DNA from: an uncultured Clostridiaceae bacterium
GTDB lineage: Bacteria; Bacillota; Clostridia; TANB77; CAG-465
NCBI GenBank assembly: GCA_947381905.1
Contig: CANCXL010000002.1
Span: 1-64,000, forward strand
Length of the DNA stretch: 64,000 nucleotides
Direction of reading: 5' to 3'
This document shows positions 15,407 to 47,629 of the stretch, in pieces (within the stretch, counting starts at the first letter, position 1; every line of letters starts with the position of its first letter). The notes beneath the pieces were generated by a model, which was not told where the DNA came from, searched no databases, and worked only from the letters and a program-made list of their open reading frames with translations. The position numbers and the translations under genes were made by a program.

Positions 15407-17884
15407 ATGAAAAATAGATTTAAATTTTTATCTTTAATTATGTGTTTATTTATGATTATGCAAGTAGTTTTGCCATGCTTTGATGTAACATATGCAGTTA
15501 TATCAGATAGTAATACAATACTAATTGCATGTGGAGTAACAATTAAAAATAACACTACTTTAAATCAAGTAGTATCACAATATGGCGCACAGCCAAAAAT
15601 TACAACAAGTTCTGTTTTTGGTGGTACTGCTACTACTTTTTATAAAGAAGGATATGAGGACTTACTTTATATTGAAACAAATGAAGCAGGAATAGTAATG
15701 GCTGCTGGAACTTGTGCTACAGACTTTAAGTCTAATTTGAAGGATTATCATGAACCATTTGATGGAACAGTTCATTTTATGCAAGGATATGTAATAGATG
15801 ATTGGGATGATGGATCAATAGGAGTACTTGCATACAATAATGCAGTAAAAAATGGTATAGAGCAAAAGAAACTATTAGATAAATGGTATTCTAATCAATA
15901 TGAATATGAAAAAAATCTATGTCAACATGCAATTCCAATTGTAAATTGCTATTTAACAAGAGACGGAGATTCTCCAATTGAATTTAACAATGAAATATAT
16001 GATGCTCTTGCAAAAATTGAACAAAATGGAAAAGATTTACAAACTTATGCTGATGAAAACAATAAAACAGATACATATAAAAGAGTAGGATCTGACACTG
16101 GATATCTTGCAACATGGGAAGCATTGCCAAATCCGTTTAGAGCAGCAGATGGTGCTAGTGGATTTAGAGCAACAGAAACAAAAAAATATGGATACTTTAA
16201 ATATCATATAGAGCCTAAAGATACCAATAATTATCTTGCAGAGATAGAAAAATATTATGTTTCAGAAGATCTTATTAAAAAAGGTGGAGAAGAAGTTGCA
16301 CTTACTCAAGACGAGCAAGAAAAATTAGAAGCTGCCAAAGCAATGTATAAAAAATCTGTAGAAGAATTTAATCAAAGTGGAAATATAGATCATCAAATAG
16401 ATCCAGTTTATGATAAAACACCACTTGTTGCTGGAAAAATATATGAAAACAGATTAAAAGGTGCTGTAGATTATCTAAATGCAATTAGAATTGCGGCTGG
16501 ACTTCCAACAGTAAAATATAATGCAACTTTGAGTAATGCTGCACAACATAAATCAGTACTTGTAGTGTATGTAAATAACTTTGCTGGATATACATCAGAA
16601 GAACTAAAAAATATGAATGCGCACTATCCTCCAAAGCCAGATGCAGTATCTCAAGAATTTTATAATACAGCAATGAGCAATATGTCTGCTGAAAATCTAT
16701 ACAATGGAGATATAATTTCTAGTATACCTAATGCAATAAATGATGGATATGGAGACCCAATTACTTGTGGACATAGATACAATTTACTTGAACCATATTG
16801 GACAGACTTTGGTCTTGGTGAGGCTGGAAGACAAAGTACACATAGATTTAGTGGCCCACAGTCATATACAAATGAAATTGTAGCATGGCCTAGTGATGGA
16901 ATAACACCGCTTGAAGCATATTCAGGTGGATATTGGACATGTAAATTTTATAAAAACTATCAAGTAACTGATAGCACTACAATAGATGTAAAAAGATTAA
17001 ATGATAATAAGACATGGAGTTTTAGTGTAAGAACTAAATATGGAGATAATAGATTTCAAGTAAACGGAAATTTACTATCATTTTATAATGCAGATATGAC
17101 AGGTAAAGAAGGCTTAGTATATGAATTTACAATACATAAATTAAGAAATACTCAAACCAAAACATATACAGATTATACATATAGAACAGTATTTAAATCT
17201 ATAAGTGGTGCAGATAAAAAAGTGCTTAAATATCCTGATTTAGTAACATTAGATAAAAATGAAGCTGTAATGAATGTAAATGATAAAATAAATTTAAAAA
17301 CAACATTTAGTGATGATACAACAGAGGTATGTGTTAAATTTGAATCAGATAATGAAGATGTTGCATCTGTAGATCAATATGGAAATGTAACGGCTAATAA
17401 GCTAGGAGAAGCAACAATTACAGTTACAACTTTAAATGATAAAAAAGCAACATGTAAAGTTAAAATAATTGATGGTGTTGCAGTAGATAAAACATCTATT
17501 ACAATGTTTATAGACACAAATGATAGAATTAATGCCATTAATACACAAGGTGAAAAGCTAACATGGAAGTCATCAAATCAAAATGTGGTTTTAGTAGATA
17601 GTAATGGAAATATTACAGCAAAAAATACAGGAAGTGCAACAATTACAGTTACAACATCTAAAGGAAAGAGTGTAACAATAAAAGTTAATGTAATCAAGTA
17701 TTTAAAAGGTGATTTAGACAGAAACGGAATTGTAAATGCAAATGACGCAGCAGTAGCACAGGATTTATATAATGGAACTAGTATAACAGATGAAGACTTA
17801 CAAATTGGTGATATGGATGGAAATGAAGTACTAAATTCAAATGATGCAGCGTTAATATTTGACGTATATAACTCTGGAAAATAA
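15407..17884 (+). CDS. Secreted CAP-domain protein with Ig-like repeats and a dockerin
   Basis: 825 residues. Signal peptide about 1-30. A CAP-associated N-terminal region (about 35-125) resembles the YlbC family. The CAP/SCP-PR1 domain (about 348-475) shows LNAIRIAAGLPTVKYNATLS, SAENLYNG and GHRYNLLEP. Two BIG2-like Ig domains (about 610-765) carry ...SSNQNVVLVDSNGNITA and ATITVTT motifs. Residues about 767-825 are a type I dockerin-like pair of calcium loops: GDLDRNGIVNANDAAVAQDLY and GDMDGNEVLNSNDAALIFDVY. The dockerin implies attachment to a cohesin, none of which is seen here. The ATG follows GAAGGGTG. A close paralogue follows after 47 bp. Confidence 0.88.
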   Translation: MKNRFKFLSLIMCLFMIMQVVLPCFDVTYAVISDSNTILIACGVTIKNNTTLNQVVSQYGAQPKITTSSVFGGTATTFYKEGYEDLLYIETNEAGIVMAAGTCATDFKSNLKDYHEPFDGTVHFMQGYVIDDWDDGSIGVLAYNNAVKNGIEQKKLLDKWYSNQYEYEKNLCQHAIPIVNCYLTRDGDSPIEFNNEIYDALAKIEQNGKDLQTYADENNKTDTYKRVGSDTGYLATWEALPNPFRAADGASGFRATETKKYGYFKYHIEPKDTNNYLAEIEKYYVSEDLIKKGGEEVALTQDEQEKLEAAKAMYKKSVEEFNQSGNIDHQIDPVYDKTPLVAGKIYENRLKGAVDYLNAIRIAAGLPTVKYNATLSNAAQHKSVLVVYVNNFAGYTSEELKNMNAHYPPKPDAVSQEFYNTAMSNMSAENLYNGDIISSIPNAINDGYGDPITCGHRYNLLEPYWTDFGLGEAGRQSTHRFSGPQSYTNEIVAWPSDGITPLEAYSGGYWTCKFYKNYQVTDSTTIDVKRLNDNKTWSFSVRTKYGDNRFQVNGNLLSFYNADMTGKEGLVYEFTIHKLRNTQTKTYTDYTYRTVFKSISGADKKVLKYPDLVTLDKNEAVMNVNDKINLKTTFSDDTTEVCVKFESDNEDVASVDQYGNVTANKLGEATITVTTLNDKKATCKVKIIDGVAVDKTSITMFIDTNDRINAINTQGEKLTWKSSNQNVVLVDSNGNITAKNTGSATITVTTSKGKSVTIKVNVIKYLKGDLDRNGIVNANDAAVAQDLYNGTSITDEDLQIGDMDGNEVLNSNDAALIFDVYNSGK
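17543..17862 (+). repeat. 320-nt tract identical to 20029-20348 (copy 1)
   Basis: This part of the CAP-dockerin gene covers most of the last Ig-like domain and the dockerin. It appears identical base for base to 20029-20348 in the next gene, although the N-terminal halves of the two proteins have diverged strongly. A less perfect match extends upstream to about 17485. This suggests recent gene conversion or a shared duplicated module. Confidence 0.9.
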
Positions 17885-30971: not shown

Positions 30972-31784
30972 ATGGAAAAGATAGCAATAATATCAGATGT
31001 GCATGGAAATTATACAGCACTACAAGAAGTTTTAAATGATATAGAAAAAAGAGGAATAAAAAGAATTTTTTGCTTAGGCGATATGCTTGTTAAATGCTCA
31101 AGTCCTAAAAAATGTGTAGAAACAATACTTAATAGATGTGAGGTTGTTCTTATGGGAAATTGCGAGTCTAGAGCAACAATTACTCAACTTACAGATGAAC
31201 ATGCTTGGAATGGAAATATGTTATCTAAAGAGCTCTTTGATAAAGTAAGTAAATTACCACTTTCATATGACTTTTATATCAGCGGTTTAAGAGTAAGACT
31301 AATGCACGCATCTCCATTTTCAATACATGAAAAATCATATTATTGGGATATGACAGAAGGCTTTGATAAAAGAGCTATAAAGATGTTTGAAAATACAGAG
31401 TATCTAAATAATATAGGTCAAGATACACCAGATGTTGTAATATTTGGGCATATACATAGACCGTTTGCATATAGATCAAGACCTAATAAAAAATTACTAA
31501 TAAATCCAGGAGCTGTTTCAAATACAAGCGAAATAATAAATATTAATGGGAAAGACTATACTTATGGTTCGTATATTATTTTAGAGGGAGAATTTAATTC
31601 TAAAGAGATTAGTTCTTTTTCATATGAGTTTGTAAAATTTTCATATGATAATGAAAAAGAAGCAAGAAATATTTTAGAAACAGATATGCCAAATAAAGAG
31701 GCTTCTGCAGAAGAGATACTTACAGGAAAATATTTCGATAGGAAAAAATTAAATCAGGAGGCAGCAGCACAGTGGAAAAAATAG
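30972..31784 (+). CDS. Calcineurin-like metallophosphatase (YfcE/MJ0936 type), copy 1
   Basis: 270 residues. Metallophosphoesterase motifs in order: IISDVHGNYTAL (D-x-H), FCLGDML (GD), MGNCES (GN-[HC]), LMHASP, IFGHIHRPF (GH-x-H). The family hydrolyses phosphodiesters with two metal ions; the substrate is unknown. The normal GNHD is replaced by GNCE in both copies. Overlaps the following paralogue by 13 bp, which implies a tandem duplication and translational coupling. Confidence 0.87.
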   Translation: MEKIAIISDVHGNYTALQEVLNDIEKRGIKRIFCLGDMLVKCSSPKKCVETILNRCEVVLMGNCESRATITQLTDEHAWNGNMLSKELFDKVSKLPLSYDFYISGLRVRLMHASPFSIHEKSYYWDMTEGFDKRAIKMFENTEYLNNIGQDTPDVVIFGHIHRPFAYRSRPNKKLLINPGAVSNTSEIININGKDYTYGSYIILEGEFNSKEISSFSYEFVKFSYDNEKEARNILETDMPNKEASAEEILTGKYFDRKKLNQEAAAQWKK

Positions 31785-32539
31785 CAATTATTTCAGACAT
31801 TCATGGATGTACAATTACATTAAATAAGGTTTTAGAAGATATAAAATGTAAAGGAATAAAAAGAATTTTCTGTTTAGGAGATTTGGTTGCAAAAGGAACT
31901 GAACCTAAAAGATCTATTGAACTAATTAGAGAAAATTGTGAAATAGTAATAAAAGGAAATTGTGATGATGTTATATCAAATTATCCTGAAACAGAGGAAC
32001 ATCTATGGAATAAAGAAAAGATAGGAAAAGAAAATGTAGATTACTTAAATAGTCTACCACTTTCATATGATTTTTACATGAGTGGATTAAAGATAAGACT
32101 TATTCATGCAACTTCTAATTCACTATATAGTTCTATTAATTACTATGATATAGATGAAAGTATGTTAAATAAGATAGAAGATTTGTTTAAAAATAGTGAA
32201 GAGTTTAAAAATCAAGGAAAAAAAGAACCAGATATAGTAATTTTTGGACATATTCATTCTCCATTTGTATATAGACTAAATAATAAAATTGCAATTAATT
32301 CTAGTAGTGTATCTAATGCTTGTGATATCATAGAAAAAGATGGTAAAAAATATATGTATACATCATACTTAATTATTGGTGGTGATTATGATAAAAAAGA
32401 ACAAAGTACAATATCATTTAAGTATGTAAAGATCCCATATGATTATGAAAAAGAAATAGAAGCGTTACAAAAATCAGATATGCCAAATAAAGAAATGGCA
32501 ATTGAGGAGATAAAAACAGGAGTATATGTAAAAAGATAG
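31772..32539 (+). CDS. Calcineurin-like metallophosphatase, copy 2
   Basis: 255 residues, a paralogue of the previous gene: IISDIHGCTITL, FCLGDLVAKG, KGNCDDV, LIHATS, IFGHIHSPF. The start is a GTG at 31772, ten bases after an AGGAGG that lies inside the upstream gene. The 13-bp overlap supports coupled translation. Substrate unknown. Confidence 0.86.
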   Translation: MEKIAIISDIHGCTITLNKVLEDIKCKGIKRIFCLGDLVAKGTEPKRSIELIRENCEIVIKGNCDDVISNYPETEEHLWNKEKIGKENVDYLNSLPLSYDFYMSGLKIRLIHATSNSLYSSINYYDIDESMLNKIEDLFKNSEEFKNQGKKEPDIVIFGHIHSPFVYRLNNKIAINSSSVSNACDIIEKDGKKYMYTSYLIIGGDYDKKEQSTISFKYVKIPYDYEKEIEALQKSDMPNKEMAIEEIKTGVYVKR

Positions 32540-32550
32540 GGGAATTTGAT

Positions 32551-32889
32551 ATGGAAAATAAATATAAATTAGTTATAAATTCGGCAATAAAAATATTAAA
32601 TAGTTTTATTATGTTTTTTGGATTATGCTTTGCAATAGTTGTATATTTAAATGTTAAAATAAATATATCTAAAATATGGAATATATGCTTTTTAATACCA
32701 ATGCTTGTTTTAGCTCTTGCAAGTGTTATACAGCTTGTTATATGCTTTTGGCGTGTGGGAAAAATAAATGGTAGTGAAGAAAGAGTAGCAAAGAGAAAAT
32801 CTTGTTTGATATTTTCATCATGTATAACTTTTTTTGTATTTTTATCTAACTTTATTTCATATATTATTTTTTCTATTATTATTTTATAA
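32551..32889 (+). CDS. Small membrane protein, three predicted helices
   Basis: 112 residues with hydrophobic segments at about 13-31, 43-65 and 86-110, and a basic loop (EERVAKRK) between the last two. It begins 11 bp after the second phosphoesterase and is probably its operon partner. No family recognised. Confidence 0.65.
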   Translation: MENKYKLVINSAIKILNSFIMFFGLCFAIVVYLNVKINISKIWNICFLIPMLVLALASVIQLVICFWRVGKINGSEERVAKRKSCLIFSSCITFFVFLSNFISYIIFSIIIL

Positions 32890-32894
32890 AAAAT

Positions 32895-32979
32895 AAAAAA
32901 GTAAAGGGAGGTTATAAAAACCTCCTTTTACGATACAACATAAGTATATAGGTATTAAAAAAGCCATTTTCCTATATAC
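32895..32979 (-). ncRNA. Tandem small RNA copy A (new family candidate)
   Basis: Minus-strand unit of about 85 nt. Promoter: TTGTAA (plus-strand 33009-33014), 17-bp spacer, TATACT (32986-32991). The predicted RNA begins at a hairpin: GTATATAGG (minus strand, 32979-32971) pairs with CCTATATAC (32952-32944), the loop containing AATGGC and a U run. A 12-19 nt linker leads to a terminator: GTAAAAGGAGG (32931-32921) pairs with CCTCCCTTTAC (32911-32901), then TTTTTT. Shares its loop sequence with copy D. Confidence 0.78.
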
Positions 32980-33018
32980 ATTTATAGTATAACACGATTA
33001 TTATAATTTTACAATACA

Positions 33019-33117
33019 AATAGCTTAAGATTTATCTTAAGCTATTACTAAATAAACATTTAGCTTGGATTACGAAGTAGCCTTTTCAAGAATTATCTCT
33101 AGGGCGCCTTAGAATCG
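33019..33117 (-). repeat. 99-nt structured element X, copy 1
   Basis: 96 of 99 positions match 33252-33350. On the minus strand it holds GGCGCCC, a small TTCG-loop hairpin, a CTAAAT/ATTTAG hairpin and a terminal stem AATAGCTTAAGA with its complement. It lies between the terminator of small RNA B and the promoter of small RNA A. Strand is inferred from its setting. Not recognised as any known RNA. Confidence 0.7.
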
Positions 33118-33125
33118 CTATTTTC

Positions 33126-33211
33126 AAAAAGTAAAAGGAGGTTTTTATAACCTCCTTTTACGTCATACTACAAAGATATATAGGTCTATAAAAACCCATT
33201 CCCTATATATC
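33126..33211 (-). ncRNA. Tandem small RNA copy B
   Basis: Promoter: TTGAAA (plus-strand 33241-33246), 17-bp spacer, TATACT (33218-33223). The RNA starts at the hairpin GATATATAGG (33211-33202) with CCTATATATC (33184-33175), loop containing AATGGG and a U run, followed by the terminator stem GTAAAAGGAGG/CCTCCTTTTAC (33161-33131) and TTTTT. Loop type shared with copy C. Confidence 0.8.
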
Positions 33212-33251
33212 AATTATAGTATAACATAAATTAGATGTATTTTCAATATAA

Positions 33252-33350
33252 AATAGCTTAAGATTTCTCTTAAGCTATTACTAAATAAACATTTAGCTTG
33301 GACTACGAAGCAGCCTTTTCAAGAATTATCTCTAGGGCGCCTTAGAATCG
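33252..33350 (-). repeat. 99-nt structured element X, copy 2
   Basis: Partner of 33019-33117. It differs at three positions, one in a hairpin loop and one that keeps a G-U pair in the TTCG hairpin. It lies 53 nt downstream of the 59-codon gene on the minus strand and may form the 3' end of that mRNA, its last hairpin being followed by a short T-rich run. Confidence 0.7.
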
Positions 33351-33402
33351 ATTTTTATAATGCATAAACATTGAGTCTAAACCTTGTTAATTTAATTAAA
33401 AT

Positions 33403-33582
33403 CTAGTTAAAATAGTTTCTAATTCTGTTGAGTGCATTTTTGGTTATCCACTCAAAATGCTGAGAATTAACATCGTCTGGCAAATCTTCTATGAAATCAT
33501 CTAAAGATTTCCAGATTTCATTAACAATTACTAAGATTCCTTCGCATGGGTTTGCGTCAGAATCATTTTTGTAGTATGTCAT
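33403..33582 (-). CDS. Small 59-residue protein of unknown function
   Basis: ATG at plus-strand 33582-33580 and TAG at 33405-33403. GGAGG stands upstream at the normal distance. The protein begins MTYYKNDSDANPCEGIL, has an amphipathic middle (VIVNEIWKSLDDFIEDLP) and ends ALNRIRNYFN; it is soluble and somewhat acidic. Its start region lies in the loop of a 14-bp stem formed by 33552-33565 and 33601-33614. It is the only apparent gene within the small-RNA cluster. No family recognised. Confidence 0.65.
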   Translation of the reverse strand: MTYYKNDSDANPCEGILVIVNEIWKSLDDFIEDLPDDVNSQHFEWITKNALNRIRNYFN

Positions 33583-33614
33583 TTTTATTCCTCCAAGTTC
33601 TGATTCTAACGCAA
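33552..33614 (-). promoter_or_regulatory. Stem-loop enclosing the ribosome site and start of the 59-codon gene
   Basis: In the minus-strand mRNA, TTGCGTTAGAATCA (33614-33601) can pair with TGATTCTGACGCAA (33565-33552). All 14 positions pair, one of them as G-U. The 35-nt loop contains GGAGG and the ATG; the 3' half of the stem is coding sequence (codons 6-10). This could control translation or mRNA stability. The rest of 33615-33770 is plain AT-rich sequence with a likely promoter containing TATAAT on the minus strand near 33700. Confidence 0.62.
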
Positions 33615-33775
33615 GTATATGCTAGTTTGTATATTAATTGTTCTAGATATTTCTTAAAAATTATTTTATAAAATATAAAACATATAACTTAACTATATTA
33701 TATCACAATTTACATAAAATTTAAAGCTTTGGATTATTTCATGAAAAATATTGAAATATAATTTAATTTGTATAT

Positions 33776-33860
33776 AAAAAAGTAGAAGGAGATTATAAAA
33801 ATCTCCTTCTATGATACATAAAAGATATATAGGTCTATAAAATCCCATTTCCCATATATC
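33776..33860 (-). ncRNA. Tandem small RNA copy C
   Basis: Promoter: TTGAAA (plus-strand 33890-33895), 17-bp spacer, TATAAC (33867-33872). Hairpin GATATATGGG (33860-33851) with CCTATATATC (33833-33824); terminator stem TAGAAGGAGA/TCTCCTTCTA (33811-33783) followed by TTTTTT. The changes in the terminator stem relative to the other copies are compensatory (C replaced by T and the partner G by A), so pairing is kept. Confidence 0.78.
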
Positions 33861-33898
33861 AATTATGTTATAGCATAAATATAACTAATTTTCAACAT

Positions 33899-33946
33899 AA
33901 GTGACACATGTATAAAAAAGTAAAGTGACACATATATAAAAAAGTA
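33899..33946 (+). repeat. 24-bp perfect-length tandem duplication
   Basis: AAGTGACACATGTATAAAAA and four more bases at 33899-33922 are repeated at 33923-33946 with one mismatch (G to A). It sits between small RNA copies C and D and covers the end of copy D's terminator tract. Confidence 0.85.
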
Positions 33947-34021
33947 AAAGAAGATTATAAAATCTCCTTTTACGATACAACATAAGTATATAGGTATTTA
34001 AAAAGCCATTTTTCTATATAC
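33938..34021 (-). ncRNA. Tandem small RNA copy D
   Basis: Promoter: TTGAAG (plus-strand 34051-34056), 17-bp spacer, TATACT (34028-34033). Hairpin GTATATAGA (34021-34013) with CCTATATAC (33994-33986) and a loop matching copy A (AATGGC, U run). Terminator stem GTAAAAGGAGATT (33973-33961) with the region 33956-33944, then TTTTT. Confidence 0.77.
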
Positions 34022-34123
34022 ATTTATAGTATAACATTGTTTTGCTAAATCTTCAACATAAATATCTAATTGGTTTTCTTAAGATTATACATAAACATTA
34101 AAATTACATATTAATTATAATAT

Positions 34124-34146
34124 TTATCATAGTTTTTATCATAGTT
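34124..34146 (+). repeat. 11-bp direct repeat abutting hisS promoter
   Basis: TTATCATAGTT occurs at 34124-34134 and 34136-34146. The second copy runs into the -35 hexamer, so this may be a regulator site or chance in AT-rich DNA. Confidence 0.5.
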
Positions 34147-34173
34147 GACAATAAAAAATAATTATTGTATAAT
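34145..34173 (+). promoter_or_regulatory. Promoter of hisS leader transcript
   Basis: TTGACA at 34145-34150, 17-bp spacer, TATAAT at 34168-34173: a perfect consensus promoter. Confidence 0.88.
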
Positions 34174-34201
34174 ATAACCAGTTGAAAGGAGTAGAATAAA
34201 A

Positions 34202-34267
34202 ATGAATAAACAAATAAAAATAAACACATTAGCACATCATCATATTTATTCTATGTCTGCGTTATAA
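34202..34267 (+). CDS. hisS leader peptide with three consecutive His codons
   Basis: A 21-residue open frame, MNKQIKINTLAHHHIYSMSA plus Leu, starts behind AAAGGAG and ends with TAA at 34265-34267. Three CAT codons lie at 34235-34243. A terminator and then hisS follow. This arrangement fits ribosome-mediated attenuation: slow translation of His codons when charged tRNA-His is scarce should prevent termination. CACATCA at 34233-34239, overlapping the His codons, can pair with TGATGTG at 34302-34308, so a stalled ribosome would block that helix. No T-box sequence is present. The exact antiterminator is not resolved. Confidence 0.72.
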   Translation: MNKQIKINTLAHHHIYSMSAL

Positions 34268-34280
34268 TTTTAAAAATAAC

Positions 34281-34351
34281 TCAGGCATAGTTTGTTGTGC
34301 CTGATGTGTGATATAACTTACACGTAAGGCCAAAAACTTACGTGTTTTTTT
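34281..34351 (+). terminator. Attenuator hairpins and terminator of hisS leader
   Basis: A first hairpin pairs TCAGGCA (34281-34287) with TGCCTGA (34298-34304). The terminator pairs ACACGTAAG (34320-34328) with CTTACGTGT (34337-34345), followed by TTTTTTT. The first hairpin shares bases with the alternative pairing of TGATGTG to the His codons, so the two are mutually exclusive. Confidence 0.85.
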
Positions 34352-34416
34352 ATTATTATTAAAATATTGTAATAAAAAAATATTAATTATAAATTAAGAT
34401 TGAAGGAGAGATAGAA

Positions 34417-35733
34417 ATGGAAGAAATAAAAAGAGTTGAACCAAGAACATTAAGTGGATTTATGGAACTATTACCACAAGATCAAATAAAATTTAACGAA
34501 ATGTTACAAACAATAAGAAAAACATATGAATTATATGGATTTTTACCACAAGAAACACCAATAATAGAAGCGTCAGAAGTATTACTTGCAAAAGCTGGAG
34601 GAGAAACAGAAAAGCAAATTTATTCTTTTAAAAAAGGAGATAAAGATTTAAGTCTTCGTTTTGATTTAACAGTACCTCTTGCAAAATATGTAGCAGAATA
34701 TTATAATGATTTAACTTTCCCATATAGAAGATATCAAATTGGTAAAGTATTTAGAGGTGAAAGAGCACAAAAAGGAAGATATAGAGAATTTTATCAATGT
34801 GATATAGATATAATTGGAGATGGAAAATTAAGTATAATAAATGATGCAGAAATACCAAGTATAATATATACAACATTTAAAAACTTAGGATTTTCTAATT
34901 TTGTTATTAAAATAAATAATAGAAAGATACTAAATGGTCTATTTGATGAGCTAGATATTGCTGAAAAAATGACAGATATATTAATAATTATAGATAAACT
35001 TGAAAAAATAGGTATGGAAGCAGTAAAGGAAGAATTATCTAAATTAGGATTAGACAACGATAAGATAGAAAAAATAGAAGAGTTTTTAAATATTTCTGGA
35101 ACAACAGATGAAAAAATAGTAAAACTTAATGAATTAAACTTTAATAGTGAAATATTTAAAAAAGGATTAGAGGAGCTAACAGAAGTAATAAAATATGTTA
35201 GATTATTTAAAGTAGATGAAGAAAACTTTGTAATAGATTTAACAATTGCAAGAGGACTAGACTATTATACAGGAACAGTATATGAGACAAATTTAAAAGG
35301 ATATGAGTCAATAGGCAGTGTTTGTTCTGGAGGAAGATATGAAAATCTTGCAGGTTATTATACTAAAAAGGATTTACCAGGAGTGGGGATTTCAATAGGA
35401 CTTACAAGACTTTTCTATAACTTAAAGGAATTAGGACTTCTTGCAACTAAACAAAAATCTATTTCAAAAATAGATATAATAACAATGGGTGTAGGAGTAG
35501 AAAATGCCGTTGAAATATCTAATGTATTAAGAGACAATAATATACCAAATGAGATATATAAAGAAGATTCTAAAACTAAAGCAAAATTTAGTTATGCAAA
35601 TAATCTTGAAATTCCATATGTAATTGTAATTGGAGAAGAAGAGCTACAAACTAAAAAATATACTCTTAAAAATATGGTTACAGGAGAGCAAGAAATGTTA
35701 ACAATAAATGACATTATATCAAGAATAAAATAA
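34417..35733 (+). CDS. hisS: Histidyl-tRNA synthetase
   Basis: 438 residues; charges tRNA-His. Class II motifs: RFDLTVPLAKYVAE, YRREYQ-type motif 2 RYREFYQCDIDIIG, and the HisRS-specific ARGLDYYTGTVYE and SVCSGGRYENL; a C-terminal anticodon-binding domain (IDIITMGVG onwards) is present. The full set of HisRS motifs argues against the regulatory paralogue HisZ. Expression is probably controlled by the leader-peptide attenuator upstream, which is unusual for this phylum where T-boxes are the rule. Confidence 0.95.
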   Translation: MEEIKRVEPRTLSGFMELLPQDQIKFNEMLQTIRKTYELYGFLPQETPIIEASEVLLAKAGGETEKQIYSFKKGDKDLSLRFDLTVPLAKYVAEYYNDLTFPYRRYQIGKVFRGERAQKGRYREFYQCDIDIIGDGKLSIINDAEIPSIIYTTFKNLGFSNFVIKINNRKILNGLFDELDIAEKMTDILIIIDKLEKIGMEAVKEELSKLGLDNDKIEKIEEFLNISGTTDEKIVKLNELNFNSEIFKKGLEELTEVIKYVRLFKVDEENFVIDLTIARGLDYYTGTVYETNLKGYESIGSVCSGGRYENLAGYYTKKDLPGVGISIGLTRLFYNLKELGLLATKQKSISKIDIITMGVGVENAVEISNVLRDNNIPNEIYKEDSKTKAKFSYANNLEIPYVIVIGEEELQTKKYTLKNMVTGEQEMLTINDIISRIK

Positions 35734-47186: not shown

Positions 47187-47375
47187 ATGAGTGAACAAGG
47201 AAAAAATTCAGTTATAAGTGAAGAAGATAAAAAGGCAATAAGTGACGATTTATCTATGATTCCATATTTGGTAAAATCTATGGAAAAGAATGATTCAAAA
47301 GAAGAAGGAAGCAAATTTTATTTTGAAATGTTAGAAAGAATACTTAATATAGAAAACATTATAAATAAATATTAG
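47187..47375 (+). CDS. Small acidic helical protein, unknown
   Basis: 62 residues, MSEQGKNSVISEEDKKAISD at the start, then amphipathic helices. AAGGGAG precedes the ATG. It lies between a membrane protein and an RNA gene; no family recognised. Confidence 0.6.
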   Translation: MSEQGKNSVISEEDKKAISDDLSMIPYLVKSMEKNDSKEEGSKFYFEMLERILNIENIINKY

Positions 47376-47391
47376 GTATAAAGTAAAGATA

Positions 47392-47420
47392 TTGCAAGAA
47401 AAGGATAAAAATGGTATAAT
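47392..47420 (+). promoter_or_regulatory. Promoter of structured RNA 2
   Basis: TTGCAA at 47392-47397, 17-bp spacer, TATAAT at 47415-47420. Confidence 0.82.
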
Positions 47421-47426
47421 ATAATT

Positions 47427-47549
47427 GTATATAGTAGTAATACTATATATGATTGGCTGTTCAGGGAGTAGAGAAATCTACTCCTATTTGTCTATGGTGA
47501 ATGAATATACAATGTGCAAGGCTAGAGTAGTATCTGCCTTGTTTTTTTT
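47427..47549 (+). ncRNA. Structured small RNA, about 120 nt, upstream of queA
   Basis: No coding frame. Three stems: TATATAGTA/TACTATATA with loop GTAA (47428-47449); GGAGTAGA/TCTACTCC with loop GAAA (47465-47484); and terminator CAAGGC/GCCTTG (47517-47541) followed by eight T residues. About 30 unpaired bases lie before the terminator. It has its own promoter. It could be a trans-acting RNA or a leader that controls queA, which starts 80 bp later behind another TATAAT (47592-47597). It does not match a preQ1 riboswitch by eye. Confidence 0.65.
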
Positions 47550-47629
47550 GGTTTAAATTACATAAACCTATCTTTTTTTAGCGTTTTATGATATAATATG
47601 AGAGTTAAAAAAGGAGAAAAAACAAGAAA

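Follow-up and report, generated by a model that had tools for sequence, protein, structure and literature searches.

A Repeated 99-nt Element as the Probable 3' Regulatory End of a Small mRNA in a Putatively Antisense-Controlled Locus of an Uncultured Clostridiaceae Bacterium

Described type I systems and the present locus

The toxins of type I toxin-antitoxin systems are usually hydrophobic and membrane-spanning, with SymE and RalR as exceptions, and the AapA toxins are membrane peptides. The hok mRNA carries a 3' element that is able to fold back on its own 5' leader. In the aapA mRNA, transient hairpins form near the Shine-Dalgarno (SD) sequence during transcription, one of them reaching into the ORF, and the finished mRNA is kept inert by a 5'-3' long-distance interaction that is removed by 3' processing (PMC6733600). 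The RCd type I systems of Clostridioides difficile consist of a convergent, overlapping gene and RNA and encode hydrophobic toxins with a lysine-rich tail (PMC6563280), while the zorO-orzO system of E. coli uses a small RNA (sRNA), encoded near the toxin gene, that base-pairs with the toxin mRNA (PMC3919570).

In the window (the whole stretch of 64,000 nucleotides that we analyzed), a 99-nt element, X, occurs twice within an array of sRNAs. We consider it probable that X supplies both a 3'-terminal regulatory domain and the terminator to an mRNA that encodes a 59-aa protein, and that this mRNA forms part of a type I toxin-antitoxin-like module (Table 1). By analogy, X seems to act as the 3' end does in the hok or aapA mRNAs, and we know of no comparable 3' fold-back element in zorO-orzO. 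With hok/sok of the R1 plasmid and its relatives, the locus shares a small ORF, an antisense RNA directed at the translation start region, and a candidate 3' fold-back element; it differs in that the sRNA is a separate unit on the same strand rather than cis-overlapping, and in that the protein has no predicted membrane helix. The likeness to aapA/IsoA of Helicobacter (PMC6733600) lies in a 5'-3' long-distance interaction, here a candidate only, in short hairpins around the SD, here putatively metastable, and in the presence of several loci per chromosome, although IsoA is cis-overlapping and Helicobacter belongs to a different bacterial phylum. The RCd systems are likewise found in Clostridia, in several chromosomal copies, and encode small proteins, but their layout is different and their toxins are hydrophobic (PMC6563280). 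The zorO-orzO system resembles the locus in having a nearby-encoded sRNA that pairs with the mRNA and differs from it in its hydrophobic toxin (PMC3919570).

Element X and the small mRNA

The two copies of X as first reported (33019-33117 and 33252-33350, 99 nt each) lie 233 bp apart and differ at exactly three positions (33034 A/C, 33070 T/C, and 33078 T/C); in a repeat search the pair reaches 106 nt at 95% identity. The 97% identity given in the earlier note was borne out, as was its statement that X is better conserved than the flanking sRNAs, given that the four neighboring sRNA units are 75-86% alike compared with three changes in 99 for X. Its proposed genome search was also fruitful: a third copy (85%) lies on another contig of the source genome (G000:C8), and a second species of the genus (G003) has two full copies as well as remnants, which excludes chance as the origin of the repeat. 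The Rfam search proposed alongside it returned nothing at gathering score across the window and nothing at E<=1 in 32850-34420. The fold z-scores of the two copies are -3.1 and -3.7 on the minus strand and -3.0 and -2.2 on the plus strand. One end of X is a perfect palindrome, and the end of X2, read on the minus strand, is a 12-bp palindromic stem (AATAGCTTAAGA-NNNN-TCTTAAGCTATT) followed by T-rich sequence. The strong final stem reported previously is therefore sound as a structure but is to be read as a minus-strand terminator. The palindrome had prompted us to consider an IS200/IS605 end, an omega RNA, or a REP-like element, candidates that were dropped in view of the ORF context.

X does not stand by itself within the sRNA array: X2 lies directly downstream of a small minus-strand ORF of 59 codons, starting approximately 50 nt past its stop codon. 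The earlier note had missed this ORF as well as the strand logic and the fact that the sRNA linker is antisense. We refer to the family of the window ORF as class A; its intact copies are those of the window, G000:C8, G003:C49, and G003:C28. The latter three repeat the order of the window copy: promoter, leader of ~75-90 nt, SD, 59-codon ORF, 3' untranslated region (3'UTR), X, and sRNA. The ORF has the same length in every intact copy, and its pN/pS of 0.31-0.75 is below 1 in all pairs, which together indicate that it is under constraint. Given the conserved order from promoter to X and the constrained ORF, we take X to be the 3' terminus of an mRNA. Conservation of the 3'UTR extends upstream of X as first reported, into the 5' arm of a stem, P1, in which GTTTAGACT can pair with AGTCCAAGC in X; this pairing is perfect in G000:C8 and contains mismatches in the window copy and in G003:C49.

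Table 1. Features of the sRNA array and small-ORF locus in the window
Feature	Position	Strand	Basis or remark
sRNA1, orphan guide, same as sRNA4; promoter 32986-33014	32896-32979	-	
X1, orphan X copy immediately following the sRNA2 terminator; no ORF, no promoter of its own, P1 5' arm absent	33019-33120	-	
sRNA2, predicted cognate antisense sRNA: 5' hairpin, guide, terminator; promoter 33218-33246	33126-33211	-	
sRNA2 guide, complementary to ORF AUG through codon 5	33160-33176	-	Score 13.4, non-cognate maximum 7.3
X2, predicted 3' end of small-ORF mRNA (candidate fold-back element, hairpins, terminator)	33252-33351	-	Kept 3' of ORF in 4/4 intact class A copies, two species
X2 terminator stem, 12 bp	33252-33279	-	
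T element inside X2, GATTCTAAGGCGC, can pair with L	33337-33349	-	Two-sided change in G003:C28
P1 5' arm in 3'UTR, GTTTAGACT, just outside X as first reported	33374-33382	-	Pairs with 33296-33304
Small ORF, 59 aa, MTYYKNDSDANPCEGILVIVNEIWKSLDDFIEDLPDDVNSQHFEWITKNALNRIRNYFN	33403-33582	-	Equal-length homologues in G000:C8 and G003
C2 element, GGAATCTTAG, L-like, can pair with C1	33531-33540	-	One two-sided change; L041 inspection
C1 element in coding region, TGATTCTGACGCAA, pairs with L	33552-33565	-	
sRNA target site: AUG and codons 2-5, ATGACATACTACAAA	33568-33582	-	Guide complementarity
Shine-Dalgarno GGAGG	33590-33594	-	Sequence
L element in leader, TTGCGTTAGAATCA	33601-33614	-	Pairs with C1 (14 bp) and T
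Predicted promoter of ORF mRNA, TTTAAA-17-TATAAT, TG before -10	33697-33725	-	
sRNA3, orphan guide	33777-33866	-	
sRNA4, orphan guide, same as sRNA1; promoter 34028-34056	33938-34021	-	

Among the three roles that the earlier note had offered for X, a 3' regulatory RNA proved the best, in the form of the 3'UTR and terminator of a small mRNA with an element complementary to its own leader. Processing together with the sRNAs found no support, since every sRNA is predicted to have a promoter and a terminator of its own and X2 is part of the mRNA. The high conservation of X, its stable fold, and the occurrence of X1 without an ORF could also point to a free-standing regulatory RNA, or to a processed 3'UTR-derived sRNA, that acts on other targets. 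We find this very improbable, given that no promoter was seen upstream of X1, that an ORF precedes X in all four intact cases, and that complementarity to the leader within the same mRNA accounts for the conserved T segment. The third role, a recombination unit, drew indirect support from the orphan copy X1 and from X remnants where the ORF is missing, but the distribution of X is not insertion-like. A mobile or recombination unit, whether a MITE-like element or a recombination site, would be in keeping with the spacing of the two copies, the presence of X in several arrays, its end palindrome, and the GATTCT inverted repeats that flank the window ORF. It is nevertheless hardly credible to us, as the X copies are confined to these sRNA arrays, the flanking leader, ORF, and terminator are conserved along with X, and other families show the L, C1, and T complementarity in unrelated sequences.

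On the reading of X as an mRNA 3' end, X1, which stands between the sRNA2 terminator and sRNA1, looks like the remnant of a neighboring unit that lost its ORF and kept its sRNA (sRNA1). Remnants of the X terminator also precede sRNAs on G003 contigs C7 and C34. Elsewhere in the window, positions 47405-47550 of the plus strand hold a divergent sRNA-like hairpin and terminator followed by a 3' end like that of class B (a second ORF family, described below), with no ORF between them; this looks like another relic of the same kind, and the ORF just upstream (47188-47373) gives a weak match to the class B profile (E 0.027). Remnants of X or class-B-like 3' ends were found beside retained sRNAs at four places. 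Such traces, with the ORF lost and its sRNA retained, are what one would expect of a toxin-antitoxin pair.

Contigs C7, C8, and C34 of G003 end inside the leader or X, which suggests that this assembly has collapsed additional copies of the module. Decayed ORFs lie beside sRNAs at L041 (1501-1671) and L095 (G016:C2); one has lost its leader and start codon, and the other ends after 10 codons beside an intact sRNA.

Small RNAs, guides, and proteins

The sRNAs share a promoter-like site (mostly an extended -10 with TG), a 5' hairpin (TATATAGG...CCTATATA), a variable linker of ~15 nt, and a terminator. Linker and neighboring ORF are complementary over the start codon and codons 2-6 (ATGACATACTACAAA in the window, ATGTCACATCAAAGA on C8). 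A covariance model built from the -10 box and hairpin found 23 places in the source genome. It found further ones in seven other genomes of the genus, with a weak match only in two of these (E 0.005-0.01), and nothing outside the genus over a broad sample of the class. In all 15 mRNA-sRNA pairs the cognate match ranked first among 15, and the summed score of guides against start codons was 225, compared with a permutation mean of 108 (sd 9.5) and 0 of 100,000 permutations as high. These pairs had been chosen after a scan, and a less selected test was therefore made on 41 testable sRNAs, 17 of which match the start of a nearby ORF with a preceding SD at p <= 0.01, where ~0.4 would be expected. 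The protein N termini vary together with the guides. The antisense logic of the locus, in which the sRNA would address the translation initiation region as in type I systems, is well supported at the level of sequence.

Many sRNAs of the arrays have no cognate ORF in reach. The guide of sRNA1 (anti-ATG-ATA-CAA-CAT-AAG), shared with sRNA4, has no perfect start-codon target in the source genome; besides the two sRNA genes, the nearest possible start, at window position 17313, has two mismatches and no SD in view and was rejected. Guides of further orphan sRNAs, at G000:C8 (L020, 1323 and 2358) and G003:C28, match no tested ORF start, and their targets may be alleles of other strains.

The arrangement of antisense sRNA and small ORF also occurs at other loci of the source genome and of relatives in the genus, where the ORFs fall into class B (66-68 aa), class C (64 aa), C18/C25 (66 aa), C22/C9/G012 (94-98 aa), and G012:C57 (93 aa). 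These families have no detectable relation to the window ORF, the profile comparison being of class A with class B only, for which no homology was detected. Among viral contigs, phages, genome contigs, and 143 relatives, only two species of the genus were found to have the class A protein. Models from Pfam, NCBIfam, PADLOC, and PHROGs gave no protein match above the curated cut-off. AlphaFold models are two-helix hairpins for class A (pLDDT 80) and class B (pLDDT 85), and a PDB fold search with the class B model returned generic helical hairpins only (best E 0.67). The maximum KD19 is 0.36-1.21 across the proteins, with no membrane-like stretch, and the class A and class B models are soluble helical hairpins.

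At 59 aa in the window and 59-98 aa across the loci, the proteins are small, as in type I systems (typically <60 aa), but the KD19 values and soluble hairpin models do not show the hydrophobic, membrane-spanning character that is usual for such toxins. The toxin label is hypothetical and is drawn by analogy from the circuitry, not from the protein. Because toxicity is hypothetical and the usual hydrophobic toxin is absent, we do not class the locus as a proven type I toxin-antitoxin system. The same RNA circuitry could serve non-toxin proteins, in which case X would be the 3' regulatory end for tightly dosed small regulatory, immunity, or structural proteins under dedicated antisense sRNAs, and soluble two-helix hairpins lacking a convincing match in the four model collections would suit such a role. 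We regard this alternative as unlikely, although worth serious consideration, given that toxin loci typically show several sRNAs per ORF, orphan sRNAs kept once the ORF is gone, a patchy distribution, and translational control in several layers.

The leader switch and its possible role

In 15 of 15 mRNAs, L pairs with C1 (codons ~6-13) and encloses the SD and AUG, and in each of them the pairing exceeds all 200 shuffles. A stem around the SD and AUG that reaches into the ORF is of the hok/aapA type, its metastability here being putative. Most 3'UTRs also hold a C1-like element, T, that is complementary to L (GATTCTAAGGCGC in X, TAGAATAGCTAATG in C18, ATGAGAGCTGCTAAT in C25, and ATATGATACTA in C10), and the L/C1/T complementarity of other families involves unrelated sequences (CATTAGC, CTAGTATC). 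Over ten loci the L:T complementarity reaches a Fisher p of ~1e-11; the class A p-values are marginal singly (0.02-0.10), and C14 has no convincing T (p 0.39). Class A shows one two-sided change each in L:T, in C1:C2, and in a stem within X.

In the energy model, L:T is dominant (P at least 0.77) in 10 of 15 full-length mRNAs. The window mRNA has L:C1 at 99% and L:T at ~0%, the L:T fold-back of the other class A copies is 0.91, 0.25, and 0.34, and on removal of T the L:C1 pairing returns in no more than about half of the mRNAs. Given that L:T is dominant in 10 of 15 mRNAs and L:C1 in the window copy, a fold-back role is supported by sequence for the family and only plausible for the window copy.

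We propose that L would pair with C1 in the nascent mRNA, holding the SD and AUG in a loop. Once the 3' end is made, T in X could pair with L, and C1 with C2, and this 5'-3' fold-back would silence the full-length mRNA. We infer that the 3' end is then processed; its removal would bring back the 5' state with the AUG loop exposed. The neighboring sRNA, presumably transcribed separately, would pair through its linker with the AUG and codons 2-6 and block translation.

We further suggest, tentatively and with slightly less than even confidence, a genus-restricted superfamily in which several unrelated soluble helical toxins share one sRNA scaffold built from a conserved 5' hairpin, an exchangeable 15-nt guide, and a terminator. 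Guides and N-terminal codons would have diverged together, the shared L/C1/C2/T switch would have been kept despite the differing proteins, and arrays of orphan sRNAs could act as an immunity store against absent alleles. If our reading of X and its module is right, the locus belongs to an antisense-controlled small-gene family of uncultured gut Clostridia that went unrecognized by the Rfam, Pfam, NCBIfam, PADLOC, and PHROGs models used, and type I toxin-antitoxin logic extends to soluble proteins. The co-diverged guides and target codons would then offer a natural data set for pairing rules, allele cross-talk, and orphan antitoxins.

Two further features of the window lie near the array. Upstream of hisS (34417-35733), the plus strand encodes a short leader peptide, MNKQIKINTLAHHHIYSMSAL (34202-34267), in which three His codons stand in a row. 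A terminator follows at 34320-34345, and the two together look like a histidine attenuator for hisS. At 30972-32539 (plus strand), two adjacent similar genes of 270 and 255 aa carry metallophosphoesterase-like motifs (SDVHGN / SDIHGC, GDM..K) and are a tandem duplication.
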